A stretch of 58,094 bases of DNA from a virus, in the IMG/VR virus record IMGVR_UViG_3300020578_000081, positions 1 to 58,094 of that record. One strand, given 5' to 3'. Both the position numbers and the translations under genes were made by a program. The first letter of the stretch is position 1. Each line of letters opens with the position of its first letter. The notes beneath the pieces are model-generated. The model did no database searches. It worked only from the letters and a program-made list of their open reading frames with translations, and had not been told where the DNA came from. Below, piece by piece: positions 3,859-46,871 of this stretch.

Positions 3859-4293
3859 ATGAAGAAGAAGCTGTTCATCAACAGCGTCCCCAAGGCCAAC
3901 AACCGCAAGGACGGCGGTGGAGTGTTCCACACCGTCCTCGTGGGAGTGCCCCGAGCCGAACTGAAGGCCCTCACTGGGCTGGAGGACTCGGACCTCGACC
4001 GGCTCACGGTGACGATGGAGATCTTCCCCGAGAAGCTCGCCATCTACACCAAGGCCAAGGTGGCGTCACTGAAGAACAACTGGAAGCTGGTCCTCAACTG
4101 CGACGAGTTCGTCGTGACCGAGGTCAAGCCCAACGTCTACATCAAGGACGGCGAGACCATCAACGGTCTGCAGGCCTCGGTGTGGAGCAAGGGTGAGTCG
4201 CAGCTCGACATCTTGAAGGGATCCTTCTCGGTGTCGGCTGAACTGGCTGACCTCATGGGCGAGCTGGACGACGACGAGGCCGAAACCCTCTAG
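3859..4293 (+). CDS. Small phage protein, intact copy 2
   Basis: This 144-aa protein is the complete form of the truncated gene at the window start and is identical from residue 4 on. It starts at ATG behind GGGAGGTT. It has a basic start (MKKKLFINS), a central lysine-rich segment and an acidic tail. A paralogue lies at 7108-7530. The family is unknown. An abundant nucleic-acid-associated protein is only a guess. Confidence 0.8.
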   Translation: MKKKLFINSVPKANNRKDGGGVFHTVLVGVPRAELKALTGLEDSDLDRLTVTMEIFPEKLAIYTKAKVASLKNNWKLVLNCDEFVVTEVKPNVYIKDGETINGLQASVWSKGESQLDILKGSFSVSAELADLMGELDDDEAETL

Positions 4294-4490
4294 TCGACCA
4301 GTCGGCTTTCCTGCCCTGGCAAATAACCAGGGATTGCAATATCCACCACTAGTAAGGGGGAGCCACACAGCCAGTGTGGTTTTCCCTTTAATGGTAGACG
4401 TTAGGTCTATCAAACGCTACTAGACGGCGTCCGAGAGTCTAGAAAGGAGGTCTGCCATGAGCGATCACCCTGTCCCATCCACCCACTACC
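3868..4490 (+). repeat. 623-bp exact direct repeat, copy 2
   Basis: This copy is identical to bases 1-623. The left boundary coincides with the window start, so the true duplication may be longer to the left. The right boundary lies 34 bases inside the polymerase-like gene. Confidence 0.95.
4355..4387 (+). terminator. AGCCA-loop hairpin, copy 5
   Basis: This is the same element as copy 1, carried in the second copy of the 623-bp repeat. It has a CCACAC/GTGTGG stem, an AGCCA loop and TTTTCCCTTT. Confidence 0.7.
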
Positions 4491-27199: not shown

Positions 27200-27401
27200 A
27201 ATTGCAAAAGAATCTTTTCATTGGCTTGGTAAAAGAATCCAACTTATTAGCACCGATGATGAATATACCAAACTTCAGTATGGTGATCTTGGTACAATAG
27301 ATTATATAGATGATGTTGGTACAGTATTTGTCAGTTGGGATAATGGATCTAAGTTAGGTCTTATTCCGGGTGTTGATAAATGGAAAATTTTACATGATTG
27401 A
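27186..27401 (+). CDS. DUF4314 family protein
   Basis: A 71-aa protein with the DUF4314 pattern: G-K-R-I-Q-L-I-S-T-D-D, Y-G-D-L-G-T-I, V-S-W-D-N-G-S and L-I-P-G-V-D. The domain is a small beta-barrel of unknown function seen in actinobacteria and their mobile elements. It overlaps the genes on both sides. Confidence 0.8.
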   Translation: MDAFEIAKESFHWLGKRIQLISTDDEYTKLQYGDLGTIDYIDDVGTVFVSWDNGSKLGLIPGVDKWKILHD

Positions 27402-27672
27402 AAATCTTGATTGGTTTGAATCTGCTCCCTGCAAAGGGAAGACTGATTTGTTTTTTGGAAATCAAAACGAAAATATTAAAGAAAAGCGTCTTAGAGAACG
27501 TAAAGCTAAAACCATATGCTTTTCCTGTCCCAATATCCATGAATGTCGAGACTATGCTCGAAGACATAGAGAATATGGAATTTGGGGAGCGGAAACAGAA
27601 AATCAAAGACTTTCTAATGGTTATTATCCACCTCGTTTCAGAGTAAGAACGCGAAAAATTAATAATAAATAA
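27394..27672 (+). CDS. WhiB-family iron-sulfur transcription regulator
   Basis: A 92-aa protein from ATG 27394. All four iron-sulfur ligands are present: A-P-C near residue 11, I-C-F-S-C near 45-48 and H-E-C near 54. The turn G-I-W-G-A-E-T-E and a basic C-terminal tail (R-V-R-T-R-K) follow. WhiB proteins bind 4Fe-4S and the housekeeping sigma factor and are restricted to actinobacteria and their phages, so this fixes the host group. It probably diverts host transcription. It overlaps the DUF4314 gene by eight bases. Confidence 0.93.
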   Translation: MIENLDWFESAPCKGKTDLFFGNQNENIKEKRLRERKAKTICFSCPNIHECRDYARRHREYGIWGAETENQRLSNGYYPPRFRVRTRKINNK

Positions 27673-30447: not shown

Positions 30448-31092
30448 ATGTACAATGTAAATGACAATGATGATGATCTTTTTCATGATTCGTCTTTTGA
30501 TACTGAATCAAAACCCGCAGATGTCGATATTGATTCTTTTATAGATCGAACAAAAGAGAATAGCGATTCAACATACCTTAGTTCCAAAAACTTCATGTTT
30601 CGTGCCAGTCTTTCTACAACTTTGTATGAAGCCTGTGCACGCTTTATTTTTCAAACTGATTCTTTAAATCGCACAATTTTTGATCATTTGAATGCTCAAA
30701 CAAACGGTACTTTTGCAAGAGAATTGTATGCCAATGTTCTTGAAGAATCACTTATCAAGCGGTTCACTATTAAATCGTTTCTTGAAACTATTCTTGATGA
30801 AACAAATTCCGAAAATATCAGAGTCATCGCCAATGATCTAAAAGTGGATATCAATCCACAATTTATCAATATATATTTTGGATCGTTGATCAAAATTATG
30901 AACCACGCAATTAATCGCAGTATTGATATTTACGAAAAACTTTGTGTACAAATCAACAGATCTCCTGTTCAGCAAATTGTTGACAGGGATTATTCATATT
31001 TTGATTATACTGCATTGAGTTCTTCGATGCATATCGCACAATCTTTTGATTCTATTAAAAAGTCTTTAGGTTTTAATACCTATCTTTCATAA
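30448..31092 (+). CDS. Hypothetical protein at the head of the ubiquitin-like operon
   Basis: A 214-aa protein starts behind TTAAGGAATTAT. It has an acidic N-terminus and an all-helical remainder. Tight spacing to the next genes and the shared direction place it in the same transcript as the E2/JAMM/E1/Ubl genes. No domain is recognised. Confidence 0.65.
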   Translation: MYNVNDNDDDLFHDSSFDTESKPADVDIDSFIDRTKENSDSTYLSSKNFMFRASLSTTLYEACARFIFQTDSLNRTIFDHLNAQTNGTFARELYANVLEESLIKRFTIKSFLETILDETNSENIRVIANDLKVDINPQFINIYFGSLIKIMNHAINRSIDIYEKLCVQINRSPVQQIVDRDYSYFDYTALSSSMHIAQSFDSIKKSLGFNTYLS

Positions 31093-31100
31093 GGAGTATT

Positions 31101-31493
31101 GTGAGTTCTTATCCTGAAAAAATTCCGTCTTCTCTTAATCCTATTAAAAACTTTCATTATAATTTGGATTCTTCCAAAGAAGTTAAGCAACAACTTGAAT
31201 CACATATTTCAAAACTTAACGATAGAATAGATAAGATTATCGACAATATAACTATTGAAGATGTTCCTGTTCTCAAATTTATTATTAATATAACTGAAAA
31301 TAAACAAGATCTTAAAAAATTGGCTAAAGCTGTAGACCGCATAGCAGATCTTATTGATCTTAGAAATCAGCTTCTTCCTAAACTTCAAGTTATTAAAATG
31401 GCAGAGAAAGAACCAAATTGGTTCGCCAATACTTTTGGTGATTTTTCTTCTGACATTGACAAACATCTTGATGAATTATTGAATGGTGATTAA
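31101..31493 (+). CDS. Coiled-coil protein, GTG start
   Basis: A 130-aa protein starts at GTG behind AAGGAGTATT. Long charged helices (K-Q-Q-L-E-S-H-I-S-K-L-N-D-R-I-D-K-I) suggest a coiled coil. It ends one base before the E2-like fusion gene, so the two are co-translated. Confidence 0.7.
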   Translation: MSSYPEKIPSSLNPIKNFHYNLDSSKEVKQQLESHISKLNDRIDKIIDNITIEDVPVLKFIINITENKQDLKKLAKAVDRIADLIDLRNQLLPKLQVIKMAEKEPNWFANTFGDFSSDIDKHLDELLNGD

Positions 31494-31494
31494 A

Positions 31495-33396
31495 ATGACT
31501 GAAGTTAACGATAAATTTTCATATTCTCTTGTAAAGAATGAACAAGGTGCTTTTGCCGTTCGGTCTGTTGTTAGATCTTTTGATCTTGATCACGTAACCG
31601 ACAAAGACATTGTTTCTTTTTACAAGACATTTTCTCAGCATGCTTCTTTTGATACTGGTCTTTTGCCCCTTACTGGCACAGGTGTTCTTGCCATTCGTTC
31701 TGCTGGCAATCACACTCAGATTGTTGCCCAACATGCTCCTGGTCTTTATCACATAAACTGGGGTGCTTATGAAGGGGATTCAAAAGCTACTACGTATTAT
31801 CTTGCTCAGCCTTATCGTGTAGTCATCGGAGACTTTGATTGTGGCAATCTTCTTGGCGCAAGAATGTTTTATTCTCCTTATCCAATCACTTCTCCAGACA
31901 ATATTCTTTATCATGTGAATCTTCCCAACGTTAATTGCAAAGGATACCGCGGAAACGGTGTGGGATGGGTTTGTCTTTATCAAAATGATGATTGGTCATC
32001 TTTGCCTTTCAATGAAAAAGTTCTTCGTTTTATTGAACGTTGCTCTGGAGTAGAAACATACAATGACAACAACATGTCTGAAACAGATGGCCCTCGTTTT
32101 TATGCTTCTTACAACAAGCTAGAATATCTATGGGACCCTGCTGAATGGCAAGATAGGTCTGTAAGACATGGTTATGAGTGGACATTAGACGACCAACTTT
32201 GGATTCCTGTTCAAGTTAAAGGTATCGATGACCAACAAGGGCATCATGAAAATGGCCAATATCTCACTCTTGCCATGGCCATGCTTGGTAATTATAGGGC
32301 GTATTATAACGACAATAACGTCCCCAAGCTTTACAACGTTGTTTCTCGTCCTGACTTAGAACTTTCATCCACACAAATTGCTGACATTTTCAAAAGATCT
32401 TTTTCTTTGTCTCCTTCTATTGCTAGACATCAAACCAGAGACAATCCATATCAGTTTACTATTGAAAGTAGACAAAAGACCGGATCTGATGTCCTGCTTC
32501 CTATATTCAATGAAAATGAATCTGATTCTTCTTTTGTTTGTAGTTGCTGTGAAGAAGCCTATTCTGACCATGAACCCATTCCAACGGCCTACAATACATT
32601 GATTTGTGAACTTTGTGCTCAAGAAAATTATTGTTATATAGCGTCTACAAACAAATATTACGATACAAACGATGATTCTGTATGTTACTCACAAGAACAA
32701 GAATGCTATTATCATATAACTCATGATTCTGTTTTTGTTTGTGAAAATTGTTCTGATGCTTATGGTGTTTCTGGTGTGAGTCCTGAAAGTTCACAAAAAC
32801 TTAACCAACATATGTATACAAATTCCAAGTACGGTGTCATATGCGAATCTTGTTTCTACCAGTTTTTGCCAATGGATTCAGACGAACTTGTAAATTGTAA
32901 TTTTTGTTCCAAACCACTCATAAACGATCAAGATTATCAACCTTTTGATTATCATTACAAAACTTCCAATTGGAACGTTTCTACACTTTCTTCTGCGCCG
33001 ATGGGAACCTTCGACGAAGAAGGCAACTACACCCCGGCAGGAAATCCTGATTCTTTCAATGTCCAAGATTCTTATATATGCCACACGTGTCTGCCTAATT
33101 TTGTTTTGTGTCCTTGTGGTTTTCTCAAACAAAAGGAAGATGTCACTGCTTTCCCTCACCAAACAACTATTTCTGATGATTCTGGTGATCTATACACTGT
33201 TCAGCAATGCTGCATGTCTTGTATAGGTAACATTCATCTTGTTGTTCAGGAAGACGGAAGTCAAGAACTTGCGGCAGATTATGTGCCGATTTCTCAATCT
33301 GTTTTTGATCAAGTTATCAATTTCAAACTTTATCAACAAATGCATTTGCCTTATGTTGTAAATAACAAACCTATAAATTTATTTACGGAGATATAA
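31495..33396 (+). CDS. E2-like domain fused to multiple zinc fingers (possible E2/E3-like protein)
   Basis: A 633-aa protein from ATG 31495. Residues about 60-190 contain R-V-V-I-G-D-F, Y-S-P-Y-P-I, L-Y-H-V-N-L-P-N-V-N and G-V-G-W-V-C-L-Y (C160). These follow the strand, proline and catalytic-Cys layout of prokaryotic E2-like proteins. The C-terminal half (about 350-580) carries at least six C-x-x-C knuckles plus His residues, including C-S-C-C, C-E-L-C, C-E-N-C, C-E-S-C, C-N-F-C and C-H-T-C. A RING- or LIM-like treble-clef array is likely. The gene overlaps the JAMM gene by one base. Ubl transfer with substrate binding by the fingers is inference. Confidence 0.6.
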   Translation: MTEVNDKFSYSLVKNEQGAFAVRSVVRSFDLDHVTDKDIVSFYKTFSQHASFDTGLLPLTGTGVLAIRSAGNHTQIVAQHAPGLYHINWGAYEGDSKATTYYLAQPYRVVIGDFDCGNLLGARMFYSPYPITSPDNILYHVNLPNVNCKGYRGNGVGWVCLYQNDDWSSLPFNEKVLRFIERCSGVETYNDNNMSETDGPRFYASYNKLEYLWDPAEWQDRSVRHGYEWTLDDQLWIPVQVKGIDDQQGHHENGQYLTLAMAMLGNYRAYYNDNNVPKLYNVVSRPDLELSSTQIADIFKRSFSLSPSIARHQTRDNPYQFTIESRQKTGSDVLLPIFNENESDSSFVCSCCEEAYSDHEPIPTAYNTLICELCAQENYCYIASTNKYYDTNDDSVCYSQEQECYYHITHDSVFVCENCSDAYGVSGVSPESSQKLNQHMYTNSKYGVICESCFYQFLPMDSDELVNCNFCSKPLINDQDYQPFDYHYKTSNWNVSTLSSAPMGTFDEEGNYTPAGNPDSFNVQDSYICHTCLPNFVLCPCGFLKQKEDVTAFPHQTTISDDSGDLYTVQQCCMSCIGNIHLVVQEDGSQELAADYVPISQSVFDQVINFKLYQQMHLPYVVNNKPINLFTEI

Positions 33397-35042
33397 TGAC
33401 TACAGAACAAGAACCTTTGACATTGGAAGATCTAAATTATTTTTGGACTAAATCCGGCGTACCATGTTTTATGGCTGACCGCGACAACATAGAAGATATT
33501 ATTGAAAACCTTGGTTTTACTATCTATTATCTGATTTGCAACATTGCTGAAGATCGTAAAATAGAAAATAAAATATGGGACAAGGGTGTTCAAAAAGTCA
33601 ACACCACAATTTTGACTGACTTTTCTACTTCTATAGTAAAAGTCGTCAACAATTTTGTTGGTCGTTCTGTAACTCAAGTTAAGAATGAAGACATTTATGA
33701 TTTTCAGCCTGTTCGAGAAGGCGCTACATATTCTCTTCCTCCAATTCCCCGTGAAATTGTATCTAGACTTGATGAGTTCTTTAGGCTTGTTGACTTTCAA
33801 CATGGTACGGAGTCAATAGTTCTTTTGACATTTGATCCTAATTTTGTTGACAATTCTGAAGGTTGGGGAATTCTTGTTCCTGATCAAGTTAACACTTCTG
33901 TCCATTGTAAATATGATCCCGACAGTGTTGTTAATCAAAAGCCAGATCACGTTATGATTGTTGGTTCTGTCCACAGCCATCCCAACATGGCAGCTTACGC
34001 TTCTGGCGTTGATCACGACGATCAAGCTGATTTTGATGGTTTGCATATTACTTATGGTTGGCAAAAATCTGTCAACAATGGTGCCACTCAGTATCATATT
34101 GAAATGCAAATGAGTGGTTCTGTTTGGACACTAAAGCCAGAAGATGTTTTTGCTGACGTAACTTTTAATAAAGAACCAGATCCTCAAGTCATTGAATGGA
34201 CCTCTAAAGTAAAAAAAGTGCTACCCCCCCAGGGGGGTCCGCTTACGCTAACTCCGCCAACTCGCCCTATAGTTCAGGAGTTCAAGCCTCCTCAGCGGGA
34301 TTATATTCAAGTTGGTATTAAAGGCGATCCATTTCTCCAAGTATATCCTGACCCCAAAGATCCCAATCCATATATCGTCGTTGCCGAAGTGGACATTTCT
34401 AAAAATTTGTTGAATCTTAAGTGTCCTTCTTGCAATTCGGTTGTTCATGGTTACAGCCATGAATTTGTTTGCAATAATTGCGATATGTTATTTGCTCTTT
34501 GTGAAGATTCTCATCAAGATATACTTGAATCAGTTGATAGATACTTGGAAAGACGTAATAAATCTAAGAACGTTTCTGTTTATCTTTGGGTTGCGGAAGA
34601 TGATGATCAAGAGCAAATGATGCTCAAAATACAAGATTTTTACAATGTTTCATATTCAGATAATGAAATAGATGATGCAATGTCTAGTTCTTTCCTTGAA
34701 CCAAATAATCTTGATGCTTATTATTATGAAGGTTTTAACTATGAAAACACTGTTTGTTGCGACCGTCCTTTGAGTGATCTTTACCTCTCACCTTGCGATA
34801 AGTGCACTGTTCCTGTAACTTACAATGATATTGTGGATTATGATTATGATCATCCTCATAATGTTTACGATCCAACTGCCAGTTGCCATAATTGTGAACA
34901 CTATTACACTAGACAATGCGTTCCTTATCTCACATCCATTCTTGATCACGCAAAAGACAAAACAAAAATTCAAACATTAATAAAAGAATGTTCTTTGTTT
35001 GTACATTGGACTGTTAATAGCCTCGAAAAAGAATCTTACTGA
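33396..35042 (+). CDS. JAMM/JAB metallopeptidase with zinc fingers (PRTRC-A-like)
   Basis: A 548-aa protein starts behind TTACGGAGATATA. Residues about 125-235 form a JAB domain. The exact H-x-H-x10-D motif is present (H193, H195, D206, in V-H-S-H-P-N-M), with an upstream Glu in an S-E-G-W-G segment. JAMM enzymes cut isopeptide bonds or process Ubl C-termini. The C-terminal third holds C-P-S-C/C-N-N-C and later C-C-D-R, C-D-K-C and C-H-N-C knuckles, unusual for the family. In context it probably deconjugates or matures the Ubl at 35836. Confidence 0.82.
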   Translation: MTTEQEPLTLEDLNYFWTKSGVPCFMADRDNIEDIIENLGFTIYYLICNIAEDRKIENKIWDKGVQKVNTTILTDFSTSIVKVVNNFVGRSVTQVKNEDIYDFQPVREGATYSLPPIPREIVSRLDEFFRLVDFQHGTESIVLLTFDPNFVDNSEGWGILVPDQVNTSVHCKYDPDSVVNQKPDHVMIVGSVHSHPNMAAYASGVDHDDQADFDGLHITYGWQKSVNNGATQYHIEMQMSGSVWTLKPEDVFADVTFNKEPDPQVIEWTSKVKKVLPPQGGPLTLTPPTRPIVQEFKPPQRDYIQVGIKGDPFLQVYPDPKDPNPYIVVAEVDISKNLLNLKCPSCNSVVHGYSHEFVCNNCDMLFALCEDSHQDILESVDRYLERRNKSKNVSVYLWVAEDDDQEQMMLKIQDFYNVSYSDNEIDDAMSSSFLEPNNLDAYYYEGFNYENTVCCDRPLSDLYLSPCDKCTVPVTYNDIVDYDYDHPHNVYDPTASCHNCEHYYTRQCVPYLTSILDHAKDKTKIQTLIKECSLFVHWTVNSLEKESY

Positions 35043-35057
35043 AAGGGTTAAATTTTA

Positions 35058-35807
35058 ATGCAAGAGAATCAAAAACGAATTGTCCTTGTTGGTGCAGGAG
35101 GCATCGGCACTTGGCTTTCCGAAGGTTTGGCCAGATTGCTTGAATGGAAATATCCCAACTCGGCTATGCTAATTGTCGACGGTGACAATTTTGAGCAGAA
35201 GAATCTTGAACGCCAATCTTTTACTCAAATGGGCAACAAGGCTTCTGTGAAGGCTCTTGAGCTTACTGAGAAGTTTCATAATACAATTATCATACCCGTT
35301 CCAAAATGGGTTGTTTCTGATCAGCATCCTCCAACCGACGATGATTCGAACAAAATCAAGGCTTCCGATCTTATTAGAGAAAATGACATTGTAATCGCCG
35401 TTGTTGACAATTTTGCTGCACGTAAAATATTGTTTGACGCTGCATCGAAAATCAATAACGTAGATGTTTTCACTGGAGGTAATGACGATGCGTTGTTTGG
35501 TAGTGTCTACCACTATCAAAGACGCAACGGTCATGATATTACTGCTCATCCAGTGGAAACACACCCAGAATATCAAAACCCACCAGACCGTAATCCAGGC
35601 GAAATGTCCTGTCAAGAAAGAGCAGAAATAGACGGTGGTACCCAAATTTTGGCTACCAACATGGCTGTTGCTGCAATTATACTTGGTCGGATTCAACACA
35701 CCATAGTGTTTGAACAAAGTCCAGAACAATCAGAGATATACTTTGATTTGGCTTTGGGTATGGCTCAGCCATACAATCGCATGGTAACATCTCAAATTTT
35801 GGTTTAA
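35058..35807 (+). CDS. E1/ThiF-family adenylating enzyme
   Basis: A 249-aa protein has the nucleotide-binding G-A-G-G-I-G at residues about 12-17, then the D-G-D-x-x-E-x-x-N-L-x-R-Q signature of ThiF/MoeB/E1 enzymes, V-V-D-N-F and C185 in G-E-M-S-C-Q-E as the likely acceptor cysteine. It would adenylate the C-terminus of the Ubl and pass it to an E2 cysteine. The length is that of a minimal E1. It sits between the JAMM and Ubl genes, as in PRTRC cassettes. Confidence 0.9.
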   Translation: MQENQKRIVLVGAGGIGTWLSEGLARLLEWKYPNSAMLIVDGDNFEQKNLERQSFTQMGNKASVKALELTEKFHNTIIIPVPKWVVSDQHPPTDDDSNKIKASDLIRENDIVIAVVDNFAARKILFDAASKINNVDVFTGGNDDALFGSVYHYQRRNGHDITAHPVETHPEYQNPPDRNPGEMSCQERAEIDGGTQILATNMAVAAIILGRIQHTIVFEQSPEQSEIYFDLALGMAQPYNRMVTSQILV

Positions 35808-35835
35808 ATTCATCAATTAATAATAGGAGAAAATC

Positions 35836-36087
35836 ATGGAACTCAATTCCAATCAGACCAACATTTCCAATCAAAACGCACCTGCTAACATCCGTTATGG
35901 TGTTTACAATCAGCCTGCTCCAGTTTCCGGTAAGACTGTATCTGACGTTCGTCAGCAGTTTTCCAAGCTTTGGGGCATTGCTTCCGACGCCATTGCCTAC
36001 AAGGGCAAGGACAAGCTTGACGAGAACTATGTTATTCAGCCTGGTGACAACGTAGAGTTCCATCGTCGCGCAGGCGAAAAGGGCTGA
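35836..36087 (+). CDS. Ubiquitin-like (Prok_Ub / PRTRC-C-type) protein
   Basis: An 83-aa protein starts at ATG behind AATAGGAGAAAATC. The pattern V-S-D-V-R-Q-Q-F, W-G-I, Y-K-G-K-D-x-L-D-E-N-Y-V-I-Q-P-G-D-N-V-E-F follows a beta-grasp fold. The end R-R-A-G-E-K-G is characteristic of PRTRC protein C/Prok_Ub members, which terminate in a single glycine. If so, no proteolytic maturation is needed. Visibly GC-richer codon use than its neighbours suggests strong expression. It probably serves as the modifier for E1 35058. Confidence 0.82.
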   Translation: MELNSNQTNISNQNAPANIRYGVYNQPAPVSGKTVSDVRQQFSKLWGIASDAIAYKGKDKLDENYVIQPGDNVEFHRRAGEKG

Positions 36088-36123
36088 TTATTTTCGCGAA
36101 AGACTTTTGTCTTTCCAAATTTT

Positions 36124-36196
36124 GGGGGGGGACTATTAAATTAAATTTTATAATTTGAATTTGATTTATTAAATTCATTATGAATGGTCCCCCCCC
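36124..36196 (+). repeat. G8/C8 inverted repeat between the Ubl and ATPase genes
   Basis: Eight Gs at 36124-36131, followed by ACTATT, mirror ATGGT followed by eight Cs at 36189-36196. They form a 13-pair stem (one G-U) around an AT-only loop. T-runs follow. It could terminate the Ubl transcript, and the tract lengths make it prone to slippage. Confidence 0.65.
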
Positions 36197-36243
36197 AATT
36201 TTTTATAGAGGCTTTAATTTATAATTTTGATATTGGAGACTTG

Positions 36244-37842
36244 ATGTTGTTTCAACAAATTCAAATAGGAACTCCTGCGATATGGGTTAAGACAGTAGAC
36301 CCTTATCGCATTGAGGATCTAATTACCTCTTTTGCTAAAAGGTCTTATTTTACAATTAACAAAAATGGGTTTTCTCATTTTGTATCTGGAAAATGGAAAC
36401 CTTTGTTGATTACAATTCCAAATTCAGAAAGTCCGTCAAATCCCATAGTTACTACCACTGCAGATGTATCTGTGGCATTTGATTTTATGAAAAATTCTCC
36501 TGACTTTAAAGATCATACAAAAACTTTTATACATCATCAACATGGAGATCCTAAAGCATTCTCTATGATGTTTGGTTCATATATTGCTTCTTCTAGTTAT
36601 GAATATCGTTCTTCTTTCATGAACGACGATATATCATTGCTTCCCATTCAAGTAATTGTTCTTTCTCCATTTGATCCACCAGAAGATATTGCTCATATGG
36701 TTTATTTTCATGAAGATCTCTATCCCACTTTTGACGAATTGCATGATATTCTATATCACATATATCAATCGACTGGAAGCGACATAGTAGATAAAGCGAA
36801 GGCAAAAGATATCGCAAATTCGGGACTTGGTCTTTCTGAGTCTAAGTTCATTAATCTTTGTTTGACTTCAATTCTTGAAACCGGTTCTGTAGATGCTCAG
36901 TATATTTACAAATCCAAGATGTCTGATATCAAGAAAAATGGTATTCTTGAGATCATCAAACCTAAAATAGATTTTGATAGCATTGGTGGACTTGACAATA
37001 TCAAAAATATAATCAGCAACAACCTATATTTCTGGAACAACCCACAAGAAGCGCAGAAATACGGCATACAACCTTTGCGCAGAATTCTTACTGTTGGCGT
37101 TCCAGGCACTGGTAAATCAGCTATTTGTGAAGCCACCGCTAATGCTCTGGGTCTTGACCTTGCACGCACCGGTGTTAGTCAAGTCATGAATTCATTCATT
37201 GGCCAATCAGAAGCAAACATGCGCATGGTTTTTCGTCAAATCAAAGCAATGGCTCCTCTTTGTGTATGGATCGATGAGTTCGGTCGCGATATGTCTGGCG
37301 GTCAATCTTCCAGCCATGTAGACGGTGGCACTACTGATCGTGTTCATGGCGAATTTTTGACAGGACTTCAAGAACTTCCTGACAACGTATTCTTGATGTG
37401 CGCAGCAAATCAGCTTACCCATCTCAAGCCCGAAATGCTTCGCGCAGAGCGTTTTGACAAAATTTTCTTTGTTGGTCTTCCTTCTTTTGCTGAAAGAATT
37501 GATATTCTTAAAATATATCTTCCTAACTTTGATTTTAATCTTGAACAAATTGCTCATTCTATCAAGTATTTTACTGGTGCAGAAATTAAATCTTTGATTA
37601 AAGAAGTTACTTTTAATATTGTTTCTTTATATCGTCGTCCTATAACAACTCAAGATATTCTTGCTCAAGTTCCTTTGACCAAGAATATTCTTTGGAACAA
37701 AGACCGTCAAATGATTAAAGATTTATATGCATATGCGATGAACAATTGGGATTGGGCCTCTACCGCTCAGTACGATGAGTCATCTGATATACTTGGTAAA
37801 ACAAAAACCAACCAAAGTTCTAATTGGACAATCAAAGCTTAG
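36244..37842 (+). CDS. Ycf46-like AAA ATPase
   Basis: A 532-aa protein from ATG 36244, which follows TTGGAG at five bases. An earlier in-frame ATG at 36184 lies inside the C8 hairpin. The N-terminal half is unclassified. The AAA module has F-D-S-I-G-G-L-D, Walker A G-V-P-G-T-G-K-S (285-292), pore-side and Walker B V-W-I-D-E-F (D344, E345), sensor C-A-A-N-Q and an R-A-E-R-F-D arginine-finger region. It is closest in pattern to Ycf46/spoVK-type ATPases. No C-terminal hydrophobic-Tyr-x proteasome-docking motif is present (it ends WTIKA). A remodelling or unfolding role with the Ubl system is inference. Confidence 0.85.
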   Translation: MLFQQIQIGTPAIWVKTVDPYRIEDLITSFAKRSYFTINKNGFSHFVSGKWKPLLITIPNSESPSNPIVTTTADVSVAFDFMKNSPDFKDHTKTFIHHQHGDPKAFSMMFGSYIASSSYEYRSSFMNDDISLLPIQVIVLSPFDPPEDIAHMVYFHEDLYPTFDELHDILYHIYQSTGSDIVDKAKAKDIANSGLGLSESKFINLCLTSILETGSVDAQYIYKSKMSDIKKNGILEIIKPKIDFDSIGGLDNIKNIISNNLYFWNNPQEAQKYGIQPLRRILTVGVPGTGKSAICEATANALGLDLARTGVSQVMNSFIGQSEANMRMVFRQIKAMAPLCVWIDEFGRDMSGGQSSSHVDGGTTDRVHGEFLTGLQELPDNVFLMCAANQLTHLKPEMLRAERFDKIFFVGLPSFAERIDILKIYLPNFDFNLEQIAHSIKYFTGAEIKSLIKEVTFNIVSLYRRPITTQDILAQVPLTKNILWNKDRQMIKDLYAYAMNNWDWASTAQYDESSDILGKTKTNQSSNWTIKA

Positions 37843-37851
37843 CGAGGAATT

Positions 37852-38466
37852 ATGTCTATTGAAAAAACAGTTGACGATTTTATAGAATCAATTGAAATTG
37901 TTTCAGATGATTCTCCCAAATACACAAACACTCTTTACAAAAAGTGGTTTAAATCAAAGACTCAAAGTGGATTTCTTGCTATTAAACCCTGGTTTGATGG
38001 CATGAAATTTTCTATTGACATTGGCAAAACAAATTCTGCTGGTAAATTGGAGAGTAGTACGAATTGTTTTGTAGATGCTGTTGACTTTGCAGCATATCTT
38101 CGTTCTGTTGTTAGCGGAACAGCAGTAGCTAATTTTCCCCCAAACGAAAGATTGAATTTGTCTTATCCTGAATCTTTTGTTTCCTACGGTGGAACTATGA
38201 CAGCTGCTGGTTCTCCTATTAGCAGAATATTTAAAATTCAATATTATACTAACGGTGGTACTGCTGATCTTTTCAACTTTATTTGGAAAGTTGGTCATTT
38301 TAAAGCTAGAAAATCAGATACTGGAGCTTTCATTCCTGATATGAAAGCTCCTTTGTCTGTTGATTTTATAAGAGTTTCTAGACAAGACACTGTAAGTATA
38401 TCCTATCTTTGTGATCTTGCTCTTACTTCGTATGCCACTAACAACACAGAATGGTATGATGCGTAA
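37852..38466 (+). CDS. Hypothetical protein in the Ubl operon
   Basis: A 204-aa strand-rich protein starts behind AGCGAGGAATT. Segments such as F-L-A-I-K-P-W-F-D-G-M-K-F-S-I-D-I-G suggest a beta fold. It overlaps the next gene by one base. No family is recognised. Operon position is the only link to Ubl conjugation. Confidence 0.65.
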   Translation: MSIEKTVDDFIESIEIVSDDSPKYTNTLYKKWFKSKTQSGFLAIKPWFDGMKFSIDIGKTNSAGKLESSTNCFVDAVDFAAYLRSVVSGTAVANFPPNERLNLSYPESFVSYGGTMTAAGSPISRIFKIQYYTNGGTADLFNFIWKVGHFKARKSDTGAFIPDMKAPLSVDFIRVSRQDTVSISYLCDLALTSYATNNTEWYDA

Positions 38467-38837
38467 TGTCTGACAATATGTTTACTTCTGTGACATTGGA
38501 AGAAATGCAAAAGCAGGTCCAAGATCTTTTGATTGCGTTTGCTGCAAAGCTTGAATCTAGATTTGAAGATATTGAAAAATCGATTGAAAAGATTGAAGAG
38601 CAAATAGCTACATTGGTACTTGGTTTTGGCGAACAAGCTGTAAACATGGAAGGTCTTCTTGCTCAGTTGAGATTTTCTTCTCCTGAATCACAGAAGATAT
38701 TCATGGACACAATCGCCGAAAGCAGAAAGAAAATGCTCGAGGTCATGAGAGAAGGCGCTAATGATTTACTGGCTGGACAAAATCCAAAACTTGCCTCAAC
38801 CATTGAGAACTTGGCTGCAGAAAAGCTACTTGACTGA
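38466..38837 (+). CDS. Coiled-coil protein
   Basis: A 123-aa protein with a long charged heptad region (residues about 10-45: L-E-S-R-F-E-D-I-E-K-S-I-E-K-I-E-E-Q-I) and a second helical half. It could oligomerise as a scaffold. The function is unknown. Confidence 0.7.
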   Translation: MSDNMFTSVTLEEMQKQVQDLLIAFAAKLESRFEDIEKSIEKIEEQIATLVLGFGEQAVNMEGLLAQLRFSSPESQKIFMDTIAESRKKMLEVMREGANDLLAGQNPKLASTIENLAAEKLLD

Positions 38838-39039
38838 ACCCGTTAATGGTTCCAGTGTTCTTTTTGTAGACGAGGAACATTCTAATATTCTTTCTGATCC
38901 ATTTTATATATCCAAAATATATCCTTTGGCTAAGCAGGTTTATCCAGATATTTTATCTTTGCATATTGCTTCTATTGCTTTTCATTCTTTAATTGAGAAT
39001 GGAACTTTAATATTTGATTCCATACAGGTTGACTTATGA
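38830..39039 (+). CDS. Small hypothetical protein, uncertain start
   Basis: The frame is open from 38761, but most of that part overlaps the coiled-coil gene. A TTG at 38830 with four-base coupling is the most economical start, giving about 69 aa. It overlaps the next ATG by four bases. No domain is recognised. Confidence 0.5.
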   Translation: MTEPVNGSSVLFVDEEHSNILSDPFYISKIYPLAKQVYPDILSLHIASIAFHSLIENGTLIFDSIQVDL

Positions 39040-39677
39040 TATCTATTGATTCTATACGTGATCCAGATCTATCCGATTCTATAATTAACACTCTTGTTTT
39101 TCGGTTGGACGATTATCTTTATCCTTTGAATGATTTTACTACTTATCACCTTGCAACCAAAAACAATGCATATCTAAGATCTTTTGCACGTGACAATCCC
39201 ACCAATCAATGTTCTGTTACTTTATATCAAACTTTTATAGCTTCCATGCCTGTTAGCCAAATAGAAATTGCTCGTTCTTGGCGATCCAATCAAGCAGAAA
39301 GTTTTGATTATTTTTATATTGGTTCTAAAAACGGACTAAAAAATACTTTTTTTTACGATTATCTACCTTCTGCTTTTGATTATATTTTTACCTATTTTAT
39401 TACCAACTTATATATCAAACAAATAGGATCTGGTCTTGGTTCGGCTTTTTTGTTTGATACTTCTAAGTTTAGAGCTTTTGAAACACCTGTTCAAGATTTG
39501 GTTTCTTATACATCTTCCATCAATAATATCGTTACTTCTATTGCGGGACTTCAATCTGATCGTGATTATCTTCTACAAATAGTTGAAGTTCAAAAGTCTC
39601 AAATTCAAAGTTTACATCAACAGATAGATGAACTTAATAAAAAGATTTACTATCAATCTCAGATGACTTGGAGATAA
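39036..39677 (+). CDS. Hypothetical protein with C-terminal coiled coil
   Basis: A 213-aa protein is coupled by ATGA. The C-terminal 40 residues (L-L-Q-I-V-E-V-Q-K-S-Q-I-Q-S-L-H-Q-Q) form a coiled coil. The N-terminal part is Tyr- and Phe-rich. No family is recognised. Confidence 0.65.
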   Translation: MISIDSIRDPDLSDSIINTLVFRLDDYLYPLNDFTTYHLATKNNAYLRSFARDNPTNQCSVTLYQTFIASMPVSQIEIARSWRSNQAESFDYFYIGSKNGLKNTFFYDYLPSAFDYIFTYFITNLYIKQIGSGLGSAFLFDTSKFRAFETPVQDLVSYTSSINNIVTSIAGLQSDRDYLLQIVEVQKSQIQSLHQQIDELNKKIYYQSQMTWR

Positions 39678-39678
39678 T

Positions 39679-40326
39679 ATGTCTGACGATCTACCCGATA
39701 TTGAACGTATTAAAAAAATACTTGATTCTGTTAATGCTAGTATGAAATCTTTTTCTACTATTGATACAGTTCATGAAGATATTAAGCGCGCATTTAAAAT
39801 CATAGTTGAAACTTCTCAGACTCCTCCGATTTGTTCTTATTTTTCTTCTCCTGACATTCACAATCTAAGTTCAACATATGAATACGCAAACAAGCCTCCT
39901 GTTTATAATTGTTCTTATCTTGAAAAATCTCAGCCCGTAAATTCAGACTTTAAGTTTTGCTTTTTCCCTTCTCGGCAAACATCTTGCATGATGTACAATC
40001 CAGATATCAAGGTAATAGCTTCTACTAAAGTAAGTAATTTTTCTTCAGATACTTTTGAACTCATTGTATACCTTATCCGTTATCGTTCTTACAGTGGATC
40101 TTATCTTTACAAGATATATGACACTAACGACAATGTTTATTATGATCTCGATTATCAATCTGAAAAGGCTGATGATCAACTTGACCAAGAAGCAATTCAA
40201 ATTTATGTTGATTTTATGACTTTTTCTTTTCCAAATTTTCAATTTCAAGATATTTGTTTTCAGCAAGTAGTTGATACGAAAAAGTCTTTCCTGAAAAATT
40301 TAGTTTTTTCTGAGGTTAGTTTATGA
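39679..40326 (+). CDS. Hypothetical protein preceding the E2-like pair
   Basis: A 215-aa protein starts one base after the previous stop behind TTGGAGATAAT and overlaps the E2-like gene by ATGA. It contains five cysteines without a C-x-x-C pair. The C-terminal F-P-N-F-Q-F-Q-D-I-C segment could be a degenerate E2-like core, but this is weak. Unknown. Confidence 0.6.
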   Translation: MSDDLPDIERIKKILDSVNASMKSFSTIDTVHEDIKRAFKIIVETSQTPPICSYFSSPDIHNLSSTYEYANKPPVYNCSYLEKSQPVNSDFKFCFFPSRQTSCMMYNPDIKVIASTKVSNFSSDTFELIVYLIRYRSYSGSYLYKIYDTNDNVYYDLDYQSEKADDQLDQEAIQIYVDFMTFSFPNFQFQDICFQQVVDTKKSFLKNLVFSEVSL

Positions 40327-41483
40327 TGAATGATTATATCTTGTCTACTCCAAGTCATATTTTTAATTTGAGCTGTGCTGGTTGGACTGATCTTTCTGAC
40401 GATTTACATATTGTTTATGATGTACATTTTACAGATCTTGAAGCTTATTGGTCGGCAATAAATGATGTTCGGATCCCTAAGGCTCCAAAAGATTTATTGC
40501 CTTTGGCTGTTCGTTATGTCTCTCAAGACAAAACTTTTTATGTTATTGAAAGACCTCCTTTTCAAACACCAGTGGATTTTTCTGGCTCTCATTCTTACAA
40601 TGTTAGAAAACCCATCAAGATTATTCAAGATAGAGTCATTTGGGTTCCTTGGACCATTACCACTATAAATTTACTTCCAGATGATACTCTTCGTTTTCAC
40701 CTTTATTTCAACGATGGTCCCATGACTTCCCTAGACGAAAAATTGGTTCCATCTTTTTATCCTAATTCTTCTACTGGCGCTATTTGCATGGGGTCTGATT
40801 CTCAGATACTTTCCAACATGTACAAAGAAAACTGTACTATAACAGATATTTACAATTTTTTTTTCAATTCATATTTTTCTGGTTGGAATTGTGACATTTA
40901 CAATGACATCCCTGAATATGATTATCTTATTAAAAATTTGAAAATCCATCAACAAATTGCTTCTCAATCTGGTTCAAAAGCTGCTAAGTTTTTCGACAAA
41001 CCTTACGCGTTCAATACGAAAAATAATTATACAAGAATGTTTTTGATCATGTCTCACATGAATCTTTCTCAAATGAATGATTATATTTTGCGGATTAAAA
41101 CACAACCACAACATTTAACTTTTTCAAATTCCATAAAAAGATACATGGATTCTTTGCGTCAAGATACTCAACAAGATGCATGGTCATCTCAAAAATATCG
41201 ACCGTATTACTCTTATATTGATTCTCTTGCTATTGGAAATTATACCAAATACAAAAGGCTTCGCGTTGTTGTATCTGATTACCATAAAAATTTGGTTCAT
41301 GAGTATGCTTCAAATCCGTATTTGATATATCAAATTTACAAGTATACCGTTGAAGCACACTACAACATCGTTAGCACGAGCCCTCATTTTCGTTATTTTG
41401 AAGCCTCTCAACGCTTTTTATATACACACGATGAACTAAAGCCTCATATGAATTCGGAGTTTAAAGATGCGCTCTCCAATTGA
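40323..41483 (+). CDS. E2-like protein A (Prok-E2_D / PRTRC-B-like)
   Basis: A 386-aa protein. The core reads Y-V-I-E-R-P-P-F, V-P-W-T, L-R-F-H-L-Y-F, then V-P-S-F-Y-P-N-S-S-T-G-A-I-C-M-G (C155), followed by F-F-N-S-Y-F-S-G. This is the pattern of PRTRC protein B (prokaryotic E2 family D): aromatic-Pro-Asn, a short turn, G-x-[IV]-C-x-G and a later F-F-x-S-x-F helix. The C-terminal 200 residues are helical and unclassified. It is a paralogue of the next gene and the likely Ubl carrier. Confidence 0.65.
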   Translation: MMNDYILSTPSHIFNLSCAGWTDLSDDLHIVYDVHFTDLEAYWSAINDVRIPKAPKDLLPLAVRYVSQDKTFYVIERPPFQTPVDFSGSHSYNVRKPIKIIQDRVIWVPWTITTINLLPDDTLRFHLYFNDGPMTSLDEKLVPSFYPNSSTGAICMGSDSQILSNMYKENCTITDIYNFFFNSYFSGWNCDIYNDIPEYDYLIKNLKIHQQIASQSGSKAAKFFDKPYAFNTKNNYTRMFLIMSHMNLSQMNDYILRIKTQPQHLTFSNSIKRYMDSLRQDTQQDAWSSQKYRPYYSYIDSLAIGNYTKYKRLRVVVSDYHKNLVHEYASNPYLIYQIYKYTVEAHYNIVSTSPHFRYFEASQRFLYTHDELKPHMNSEFKDALSN

Positions 41484-42774
41484 TTACATTAAACAAGACC
41501 CTCTTCTTTCAAGTTTTGTAACTTACAAAGATTCTATAACTTACCAACATTCACGGATTCTTGAAAAACAATATAACTATACAGAAATTAATGATTTAGA
41601 TAAAAATTCTGAAAATTCTGTTTTTGTTCAACATTTTAATCCTCATCTTACTTTTGAACCTATTAATGTTTCTGTTCCAAAGATTTTTACTTCAGAATTT
41701 TTTAAGTCTTTTTCATCTGAATACAATCCTCAATCAGATCAAAAATTTGATTTGCAAGAAATTCTGTTTCCCGGAATTAGATACCTTGCGCCCGGCATAG
41801 TGGTTTTTGAAAGGCCTCCTGCTCATCATGTTATTTCTGTTGCTCAAGATTATAGAGACGCTATAGGGCGCGATACTGATAAATCTACATATTACATACC
41901 AATACCCTGGCAAGTTTATGTGTGTCTGTACAATCCCAACGACATGCGTTTGTTTTCAGTTAAAATGTTTTTTACTCATTCTAGTTTGACAAACATAGAT
42001 CAGCCTATTTATGCTCCTCCGATTTTTAATTTTTATGCCGATGGTTCTTTGTGTAGGCCATTTTTTGATTCTATTGAAGATGTTGAAAGATACCCTCAAA
42101 ATGTGTCTGGAGTAATAGCTTCAGCTTTTGATTGGATTTGGAACAGTGGTTATAATCTTGACATTACTGACAATATAAATTTCTTTTTGACTGTTGTCAA
42201 AGGTCAGTTTCAATTTGATCAATACGTTTCTGATCAAATGAGAGATGTTTATAATAGTTTTGCTAGAATTAAATATCATTCTTTAGGATCGAATCTTTCT
42301 TTTCTCGTATCTAATGCATTTTTTAGATTGTGGGAATCACTTCCTATTGAAATTGTTTCTAATTTAACATGGAATCCTATTTCTCGTACTCATGAGTTTT
42401 GGTATTCCTTGTATCGAGATAATCTTAGTTCAATCATTGAACAATATGCAAAAGCAAACAATCTCTTTCTTTCCGAATGTGACCATGAATGTCATTGTGA
42501 TGATTGTTGTGAAGACGATGAAAGTGTTTACGAATGCGCTAGATACCATGAAGACATGCCCAATAATAATATTGTTACATATGATTATGTCAGAGAAAAT
42601 GTAAATTTATATCCTTACTTTTATGATTTATATTGCTCATCTTTAAACAATACGTTGTCTTCTGTTATTGAATCTTCTATTAAACTCTTAGAAGATACTG
42701 GTTTATTTACAACCAAATCAACTAACACTGTTTTTGGATTGTTTCAATCTAAGATTTCTTCTATTTTAAGTTGA
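41467..42774 (+). CDS. E2-like protein B, paralogue
   Basis: A 435-aa protein overlaps protein A by 17 bases. It repeats the plan I-V-V-F-E-R-P-P-A, I-P-W-Q-V-Y, A-P-P-I-F-N-F-Y-A-D-G-S-L-C-R-P-F (C196), then F-D-W-I-W-N-S-G-Y. The residue after the Cys differs from protein A. An added H-E-C-H-C-D-D-C-C-E segment near residue 340 may bind metal. Two E2-like paralogues side by side could form a heterodimer like eukaryotic E2/E2-variant pairs, which is inference. Confidence 0.6.
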   Translation: MRSPIDYIKQDPLLSSFVTYKDSITYQHSRILEKQYNYTEINDLDKNSENSVFVQHFNPHLTFEPINVSVPKIFTSEFFKSFSSEYNPQSDQKFDLQEILFPGIRYLAPGIVVFERPPAHHVISVAQDYRDAIGRDTDKSTYYIPIPWQVYVCLYNPNDMRLFSVKMFFTHSSLTNIDQPIYAPPIFNFYADGSLCRPFFDSIEDVERYPQNVSGVIASAFDWIWNSGYNLDITDNINFFLTVVKGQFQFDQYVSDQMRDVYNSFARIKYHSLGSNLSFLVSNAFFRLWESLPIEIVSNLTWNPISRTHEFWYSLYRDNLSSIIEQYAKANNLFLSECDHECHCDDCCEDDESVYECARYHEDMPNNNIVTYDYVRENVNLYPYFYDLYCSSLNNTLSSVIESSIKLLEDTGLFTTKSTNTVFGLFQSKISSILS

Positions 42775-46262: not shown

Positions 46263-46871
46263 ATGACTACTATTTTAGGTGTTCAAGGAGAAGGTTTCAG
46301 TGTCATTTGCACTGACTCAAGAATTTCATCTATGGATGAAAGCGGTTTTACATCTCAAATAATAACTTTAGCCAAGAATTCTTCTAAAGTTGCTGTCAAT
46401 GGCAAGTATCTTTTGGGTGCCGCTGGTGATGTTAGGGCTATCAATATCTTGCATCACGTTTTTGTTCCACCTGTTCCATCTCCTGGGTTGTCTGGATCAA
46501 AGTTGGACAGTTTTTTTACCAATAAATTTGTTCCTACTTTGAGAAATACATTTGAAGTTCAAGGTTATGCTGCTCCTGAAAGAGATAATTCATCTCACAT
46601 TGCTGAGCAGGGATCTACCGTTATATGCTCTGTTCATGGATACATATATGTTGTAGACGGAGATTATTCTTGGACTTCTGATGCAACTGGTTTATATGCT
46701 TTAGGAACTGGAAGTGCTTATGGTTTAGGTGCTCTTTCTGTTTTGTTTAACAAGAAAAAAGAACTTAATCCACTTCAAACAAAGTCTCTTTGTCTTAAAG
46801 CTATTGCTATAGCTGCAAAGTATGACCCCCATACTGGTCCTCCTTACTATACTTACATACAGGAACAGTAG
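46263..46871 (+). CDS. Proteasome beta/HslV-like Ntn-hydrolase
   Basis: A 202-aa protein begins M-T-T-I-L-G-V. Removal of Met would expose Thr1. D17 falls in I-C-T-D-S-R exactly as in proteasome beta subunits. K37 aligns with catalytic K33 after a four-residue insertion, followed by L-L-G-A-A-G-D-V like the conserved A-G-x-x-G-D. An S-D-A-T-G-L-Y-A-L-G-T-G-S-A-Y-G segment matches the later G-x-G-x-x-[SA] region. No propeptide is present, as in HslV. It is the likely proteolytic partner of the Ubl/AAA genes about 10 kb upstream. A stand-alone Ntn hydrolase is the alternative. Confidence 0.82.
   Translation: MTTILGVQGEGFSVICTDSRISSMDESGFTSQIITLAKNSSKVAVNGKYLLGAAGDVRAINILHHVFVPPVPSPGLSGSKLDSFFTNKFVPTLRNTFEVQGYAAPERDNSSHIAEQGSTVICSVHGYIYVVDGDYSWTSDATGLYALGTGSAYGLGALSVLFNKKKELNPLQTKSLCLKAIAIAAKYDPHTGPPYYTYIQEQ

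Follow-up and report, generated by a model that had tools for sequence, protein, structure and literature searches.

Gene content of the cassette

The 58,094-base IMG/VR record IMGVR_UViG_3300020578_000081 was analysed over its whole length (the window), and a cassette of genes for a putative ubiquitin-like conjugation pathway was characterised at positions 31,495 to 42,774. Its genes, named here by their start positions, all lie on the same strand and overlap or are separated by short gaps, the widest of which is 156 bases, 5' of the AAA ATPase gene (Table 1). The main components are an E1-like enzyme (35058), a ubiquitin-like (Ubl) modifier (35836), a JAMM peptidase (33396), an AAA ATPase (36244), and two E2-like proteins (40323 and 41467) with a probable third (31495). 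The original prediction from the bare sequence had placed these open reading frames (ORFs) in one operon, and all of them were located on one strand where it had put them.

Table 1. Features of the cassette and its surroundings in the window
Positions	Strand	Feature	Evidence
31495..33396	+	Probable third E2-like protein, 633 aa	41467 family matched by profile; invariant C160
33396..35042	+	JAMM/JAB metallopeptidase, 548 aa, cysteine-rich C-terminal region	HxHx10D; PRTRC-A profile
35058..35807	+	E1-like adenylating enzyme of 249 aa; C185, in PGE[ML]SCQ, is its single cysteine	ThiF 1.3e-13
35836..36087	+	Predicted Ubl modifier, 83 aa, C-terminus RRAGEKG	Beta-grasp model; PRTRC-C profile rank; invariant GEKG
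36244..37842	+	AAA+ ATPase, CDC48/PAN-like, phrog_8638	PF00004 2e-22; CDC48/PAN models 1e-29 to 4e-30
40323..41483	+	E2_D-like protein of 386 aa with a long extension at the C-terminus; active-site-like C155	Prok-E2_D best outside matches; 41467 paralog
41467..42774	+	E2_D-like protein of 435 aa with a long extension at the C-terminus; active-site-like C196	PRTRC-B profile
46263..46871	+	Thr peptidase, proteasome/HslV-like (MTTI..D..K); may be a downstream partner	PF00227 1.7e-4
30448..31092	+	Upstream conserved gene, possible operon member	In part of family
31101..31493	+	Conserved protein immediately 5' of 31495, 130 aa, possible operon member	Syntenic in nearly all relatives
37852..38466	+	Conserved protein, 204 aa, always adjoins AAA gene in family	27 non-identical members, 45-75% identity
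38466..38837	+	Conserved small protein, probably coiled-coil	Syntenic in family
38761..39039	+	Conserved protein, 92 aa	Syntenic in family
39036..39677	+	Variable protein, coiled coil at C-terminus	In part of family
39679..40326	+	Variable protein	In part of family
27370-27672		WhiB-family regulator gene	PF02467 1e-12

The E1 matched Pfam ThiF, and its closest named model was PRTRC_ThiF (3e-9). Profile-profile comparison with PRTRC_ThiF gave a probability of 98.8% (4e-17), while the score against TIGR03736 was below the cut-off of that model (36.5 vs 144.75 bits). These matches bear out its earlier assignment as an E1/ThiF enzyme. C185 was present in 28 of 28 E1s, is the sole cysteine in most members and would be the thioester cysteine. 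The JAMM peptidase had been expected to carry an exact HxHx10D motif. This metal site was found at residues 193-206 and is kept in 31 of 31 full-length relatives, with the consensus HSHPxMxAxASG[TV]D (F for Y in some). The match to Prok-JAB was weak (E 0.007). The PRTRC-A profile aligned over the JAB core at 91% (9e-7), and the JAMM was its first-ranked match among 68 entries, half of them neighbourhood families and half reversed decoys (34 each). Its score against TIGR03735 was 15.5 bits vs a cut-off of 101.8.

The Ubl was not recognised by database profiles, with no match to Pfam in general or to PF14454. An AlphaFold2 model built from 26 sequences (mean predicted local distance difference test, pLDDT, 78) has the order beta-beta-alpha-beta-beta-beta, with strands at 17-21, 24-28, 53-56, 59-61 and 72-76, a helix at 35-46 and a loose tail from residue 77. 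Its best 50 PDB matches were all ubiquitin or Ubl folds at probability 1.00, with query TM-scores of about 0.5-0.64. Many of its matches among viral proteins were ubiquitins of giant viruses and baculoviruses. The C-terminal GEKG is invariant in the 26 sequences. In two relatives the Gly is followed by two more residues (GEKGSL and GEKGNI), and such ends would need trimming, as processed precursors do. PRTRC-C proteins end in RAAGAKG or similar where the Ubl has its GEKG tail, and the Ubl was the first-ranked match of the PRTRC-C profile among the 68 (10%). According to the model, 35836 is a beta-grasp modifier with a free C-terminal tail ending in Gly. The earlier proposal of a Prok_Ub/PRTRC-C-type modifier is supported in the predicted fold and the GEKG end. 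The protein also differs from Pup of the Pup-proteasome system, which is disordered and ends in GGE or GGQ, whereas the Ubl is predicted to be folded and ends in EKG. PDB sequence searches with alignments of the Ubl, 41467 and the JAMM gave nothing convincing, and the Ubl found only weak matches, in SIRV, among 50,697 phage records.

The AAA ATPase matched phrog_8638 at 4e-65, and the start at 36244 is the one favoured by orthologs. It had been called Ycf46-like; the AAA assignment and the start are right, whereas its similarity is to CDC48/PAN and no specific Ycf46 match was seen. The tails of the family often carry an aromatic residue and Lys (TWKI, FKW, SWDLKV; also KSNW) after a variable linker, possibly as a docking motif. 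An HbYX motif was sought in these tails and none was found.

E2-like proteins

Every ORF at every locus was searched with hidden Markov models (HMMs) of 40323 and 41467. Outside the family, the strongest matches of the 40323 model were L084:4884-5558, L081:4237-4965 and L085:1745-2479, and that of the 41467 model was L083:4168-4956. Each of these proteins passes the Pfam cut-off for Prok-E2_D, and most lie beside E1s. When the same 68 entries were ranked against the PRTRC-B profile, 41467 came first (95%, 2e-8), 40323 second (53%, 1e-4) and 31495 third (3.6%, 0.012), followed by decoys. The match of 41467 to this profile was 94-95% (2e-8 to 1.4e-7), with C196 aligned on the PRTRC-B cysteine; its direct match to Pfam Prok-E2_D was weak (0.03; 14.4 bits vs a cut-off of 25). 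The profiles of 40323 and 41467 matched each other at 99% (5e-19), as paralogs do. The profile of 31495 matched 41467 at 89-92% and 40323 hardly at all. C155, C196 and C160, the cysteines named in the original prediction, proved to be conserved throughout the relatives aligned (C160 in 34 of 34). They are preceded by N-F-Y-x-x-G-x-L-C or P-N-x(6-7)-C, similar to the P-P-Y-F-N-T-W-D-H-G-S-I-C of PRTRC-B. The E2 identity of PRTRC-B itself is a prediction by Iyer et al. (PMC1779556), and a search for a solved structure showing PRTRC-B as an E2 found none.

The profiles thus support 40323 and 41467 as E2_D (PRTRC-B)-like paralogs, and 31495 is probably a third E2. Its N-terminal part of about 340 aa contains the invariant C148 and C160, and its C-terminal tail has seven CxxC motifs (zinc-binding). 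Zinc-finger and helical extensions had been foreseen; zinc-finger-like and other extensions are present, but the relative of 31495 in L040 has 359 aa and no CxxC, so that the cysteine-rich tail is missing there.

Conservation among viral genomes

Two scans of IMG/VR with the E1 identified 41 related loci (L001-L010 and L023-L053) on 40 records, with identities of 55-86%. The same gene set was found in essentially all relatives wherever the contig extends far enough. Against the nearest relative, the ratio of non-synonymous to synonymous substitution rates (dN/dS) was about 0.04 for the E1, 0.12 for the Ubl, 0.15 for the AAA ATPase and 0.39-0.48 for 41467 and 40323; these figures are rough, with dS near saturation. 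The E1 is under strong purifying selection. Because synteny holds at about 40 viral loci and the E1 is so selected, the cassette is not a chance arrangement. The fast divergence of the E2s against a conserved core fits E2s that choose targets.

The original prediction had also judged the genome to be that of a phage. Of the 14 related contigs that exceed 150 kb, 12 carry a terminase large subunit, and the carriers of the cassette are therefore large tailed phages. The viruses of the family are jumbo-size, at about 200 kb. WhiB is a family of actinobacteria. A WhiB gene lies in the window, and WhiB genes near the cassette recur in 24 distinct relatives; the hosts are therefore probably Actinomycetota. 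A tblastn search of the E1 against the 50,697 phage records gave no match. One scan of genome contigs found no host-encoded cassette. Its single match was a 10-kb contig (L086) in a metagenome-assembled genome of Ectothiorhodospiraceae, with a cassette-type E1 (58%), and this is probably phage DNA in the bin. In one record of 267,766 bases (IMGVR_UViG_3300042868_009074), both the cassette and the downstream peptidase are present twice, in diverged copies (L026 and L043); the record may combine two phages or contain a real duplication.

Relation to known systems

In gene content the cassette corresponds to operon type 6d (Iyer et al. 2006, PMC1779556), which we equate on the same ground with the PRTRC system. 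This system is common on plasmids (206 records) and likewise combines in one operon a small beta-grasp Ubl with a C-terminal KG, a ThiF-like E1, a Prok-E2_D E2 and a JAB peptidase. In contrast, the cassette lies on phage genomes, has two or three E2-like genes with long tails and includes an AAA ATPase. ParB (PF02195) was found in 0 of 14 large relatives, while control genomes gave matches, in agreement with the earlier remark that the ParB-related gene is absent. Profiles of PRTRC-E and PRTRC-F had no match above decoys among the 34 neighbourhood families. In the E1 tree, whose bootstrap had not fully settled, the phage cassette forms one clade (100/99), PRTRC another (99/98), and short phage E1s beside JAB a third. 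Since ParB, PRTRC-E and PRTRC-F were not found, all matches to PRTRC models were below cut-off and the E1 falls outside the PRTRC clade, the cassette is, as judged from sequence comparison, a diverged PRTRC-type core and not a PRTRC system.

Divergent plasmid sets of Alicyclobacillus (L083) and Thermoanaerobacterium (L084) also have a Prok-E2_D, a Ubl-like segment ending in KKG and an E1 side by side, with a JAMM in L083. They differ in being plasmid-borne, with a single E2 and no adjoining AAA, and in their Ubl-like segment, which is fused to the JAMM in L083 (L083:4973-5914) and lies in its own extended protein in L084 (L084:5579-5953). Two plasmids that are not related to each other have a sliding clamp gene, dnaN, in the vicinity of PRTRC-type genes (L083:803-1963 and L095:2546-3673). 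Modification of the clamp was considered as a function and rejected, as PF00712 was unmatched in 14 of the phages.

Among host systems, BilABCD and CBASS Cap2/Cap3 are comparable. In CBASS the E1 and E2 are fused, and BilA has two Ubl domains. Both differ from the cassette in being host defence systems; like the proposed pathway, they have an E1, an E2, a JAMM and a conjugated protein (PMC11354881, PMC10097602). In phages, the lambda-type tail assembly proteins I and K are a Ubl with C-terminal Gly and a JAB (PMC1779556), but these serve in tail assembly and are accompanied by neither an E1 nor an E2. A second phage set was observed in IMG/VR (L055, L056, L060, L062, L063 and L064), with a short ThiF-like E1 beside a JAB-type gene, confirmed for L055 and L060. 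Its E1 of 200 aa belongs to the separate clade, no E2_D was found, and the neighbours, as seen in L055, are sigma-70 and PolA (DNA polymerase A).

Proposed mechanism and alternative functions

We propose that the cassette encodes a reversible Ubl-conjugation pathway of jumbo-size tailed phages with probable actinobacterial hosts, and we put the probability of this reading at roughly 70-80%. The evidence consists of homology, the predicted Ubl fold, conserved catalytic residues, synteny and selection; from it we infer all biochemical steps, the role of the AAA ATPase and the targets. The E1 would adenylate the C-terminal Gly of the Ubl and take it as a thioester on C185. The Ubl would then be passed to the E2_D-like cysteine, C155 of 40323, C196 of 41467 or probably C160 of 31495. 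The variable E2 tails may choose different targets and serve as their own ligase parts, because no separate E3 was recognised. The JAMM would trim the precursor Ubl and strip the Ubl from targets, and the AAA ATPase may unfold or extract tagged proteins. The chances that the conjugation pathway is coupled to the AAA unfoldase are about even. The location beside the genes for SSB (single-stranded DNA-binding protein) and UDG (uracil-DNA glycosylase) weakly suggests replication-time proteins as targets. The original prediction had offered host or virion proteins as possible targets, or escape from host defence as a possible use.

Several results weigh against this reading. A downstream histidine is conserved among PRTRC-B proteins (PMC1779556); it is not conserved in the cassette E2s, which have W-N-x-D or Y-N-D in its region. 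The model of 31495 (pLDDT 80) matched nothing in the PDB at E<=0.001, and the 50 matches listed included no E2, so the profiles and the cysteine are what argue for it as an E2. The original prediction of three E2-like proteins therefore holds by profile for 40323 and 41467 and is probable for 31495. By sequence, the similarity of the Ubl to PRTRC-C is weak (7-10% probability). Related AAA proteins are encoded in 115 phage records, and an E1 was detected in none of them. The AAA therefore has uses apart from the Ubl, to which it is linked by neighbourhood only.

Degradation of the tagged proteins is one alternative, in which a phage ubiquitin-proteasome-like system would mark proteins with the Ubl, unfold them with the CDC48/PAN-like AAA and destroy them with the peptidase 46263. 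This peptidase lies 3.5 kb downstream of the cassette on the same strand. Its PF00227 score of 21.7 bits is just under the cut-off of 22.4; it starts with MTTILG, and T1, D17 and a Lys (K41 by one count) are conserved in 11 of 11 relatives compared. Of the 41 related records, 27 encode it, and the AAA is similar to proteasome-activating ATPases, as this alternative would expect. On the other hand, the peptidase is present in 10 of the 14 records longer than 150 kb, leaving four with a cassette and no peptidase; the Actinomycetia phage DSL-LC01 has a 46% identical peptidase and no detected E1; and the AAA tails are without the HbYX motif. Degradation is accordingly an unlikely function, and coupling of conjugation to the peptidase is equally doubtful. 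An obligate role of the peptidase in the cassette was rejected, as it is absent in one subclade, where a profile search for it gave nothing; it may be a partner that is not required. A complete viral targeted-degradation pathway, with Ubl tag, E1, three specialised E2s doubling as ligases, deconjugase, CDC48/PAN-like unfoldase and proteasome-like peptidase, is slightly less probable still.

Counter-defence would be a different use of the same genes. The phage pathway would compete with or reverse Ubl-based defence of the host by Bil or CBASS, with the JAMM and Ubl active and the E2s as decoys. Bacterial Ubl conjugation disturbs phage assembly according to Hor 2024, as cited in PMC12660748, and JAMM deconjugases of Borg elements have been proposed as counter-defence (PMC12660748). 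In PADLOC, the cassette E1 weakly matched E1-E2 models, but the Ubl and JAMM were unmatched and the E2s had no E2-model match. A decoy would also not need a full E1-Ubl-E2 set that is kept by purifying selection, and we consider counter-defence improbable. Least probable is a sulfur carrier, with a ThiS/MoaD-like Ubl thiocarboxylated by the E1 and released by the JAMM as in CysO/ThiS operons: the E1 is small, of ThiF/MoeB size, and sulfur operons also hold a JAMM and a Ubl with C-terminal Gly (PMC1779556), but the cassette has two or three E2-like proteins with an invariant cysteine, its Ubl ends in KG rather than GG, and no rhodanese or sulfur genes were found among the scanned neighbours.

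In bacteria, Ubl conjugation by dedicated E1 and E2 enzymes has been described from plasmid PRTRC operons, of enigmatic function, and from antiviral Bil and CBASS. The Ubl toolkit has so far come mainly from bacterial plasmids and immune systems rather than phages. A conserved and selected set across a large-phage family turns the question around to a viral use of ubiquitin-like tagging. Infection is a clear setting for target identification, and thus the puzzle of PRTRC function becomes testable. The terms JAB, Ub-like and E1-like were absent from a jumbo-phage survey (PMC7824862), and no earlier report of such a phage cassette was found in a literature search limited to one library.

Neighbouring genes and other features of the record

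A homolog of 37852, which adjoins the AAA gene throughout the family, was sought behind the AAA gene of Rhodobacter/Corndog-type phages and not found. In 18 distinct relatives the cassette is closely preceded by the gene for a membrane protein with a HELAH motif (M50-like peptidase; L007:4124-4609), which was unmatched in the window. The window itself also encodes SSB, UDG, a helicase, a subtilase and a cytidine deaminase, and six tRNA genes were detected. A PcfJ-like protein, of a family mostly encountered on plasmids, is encoded at 590-2551 (PF14284 1e-11). The GC content is 47-51% over the first 12 kb and 33-42% beyond. An exact repeat of 623 bases was found at 1-623 and 3868-4490, and the ORFs after each copy have identical first residues; the repeat may be an assembly join or a real duplication.

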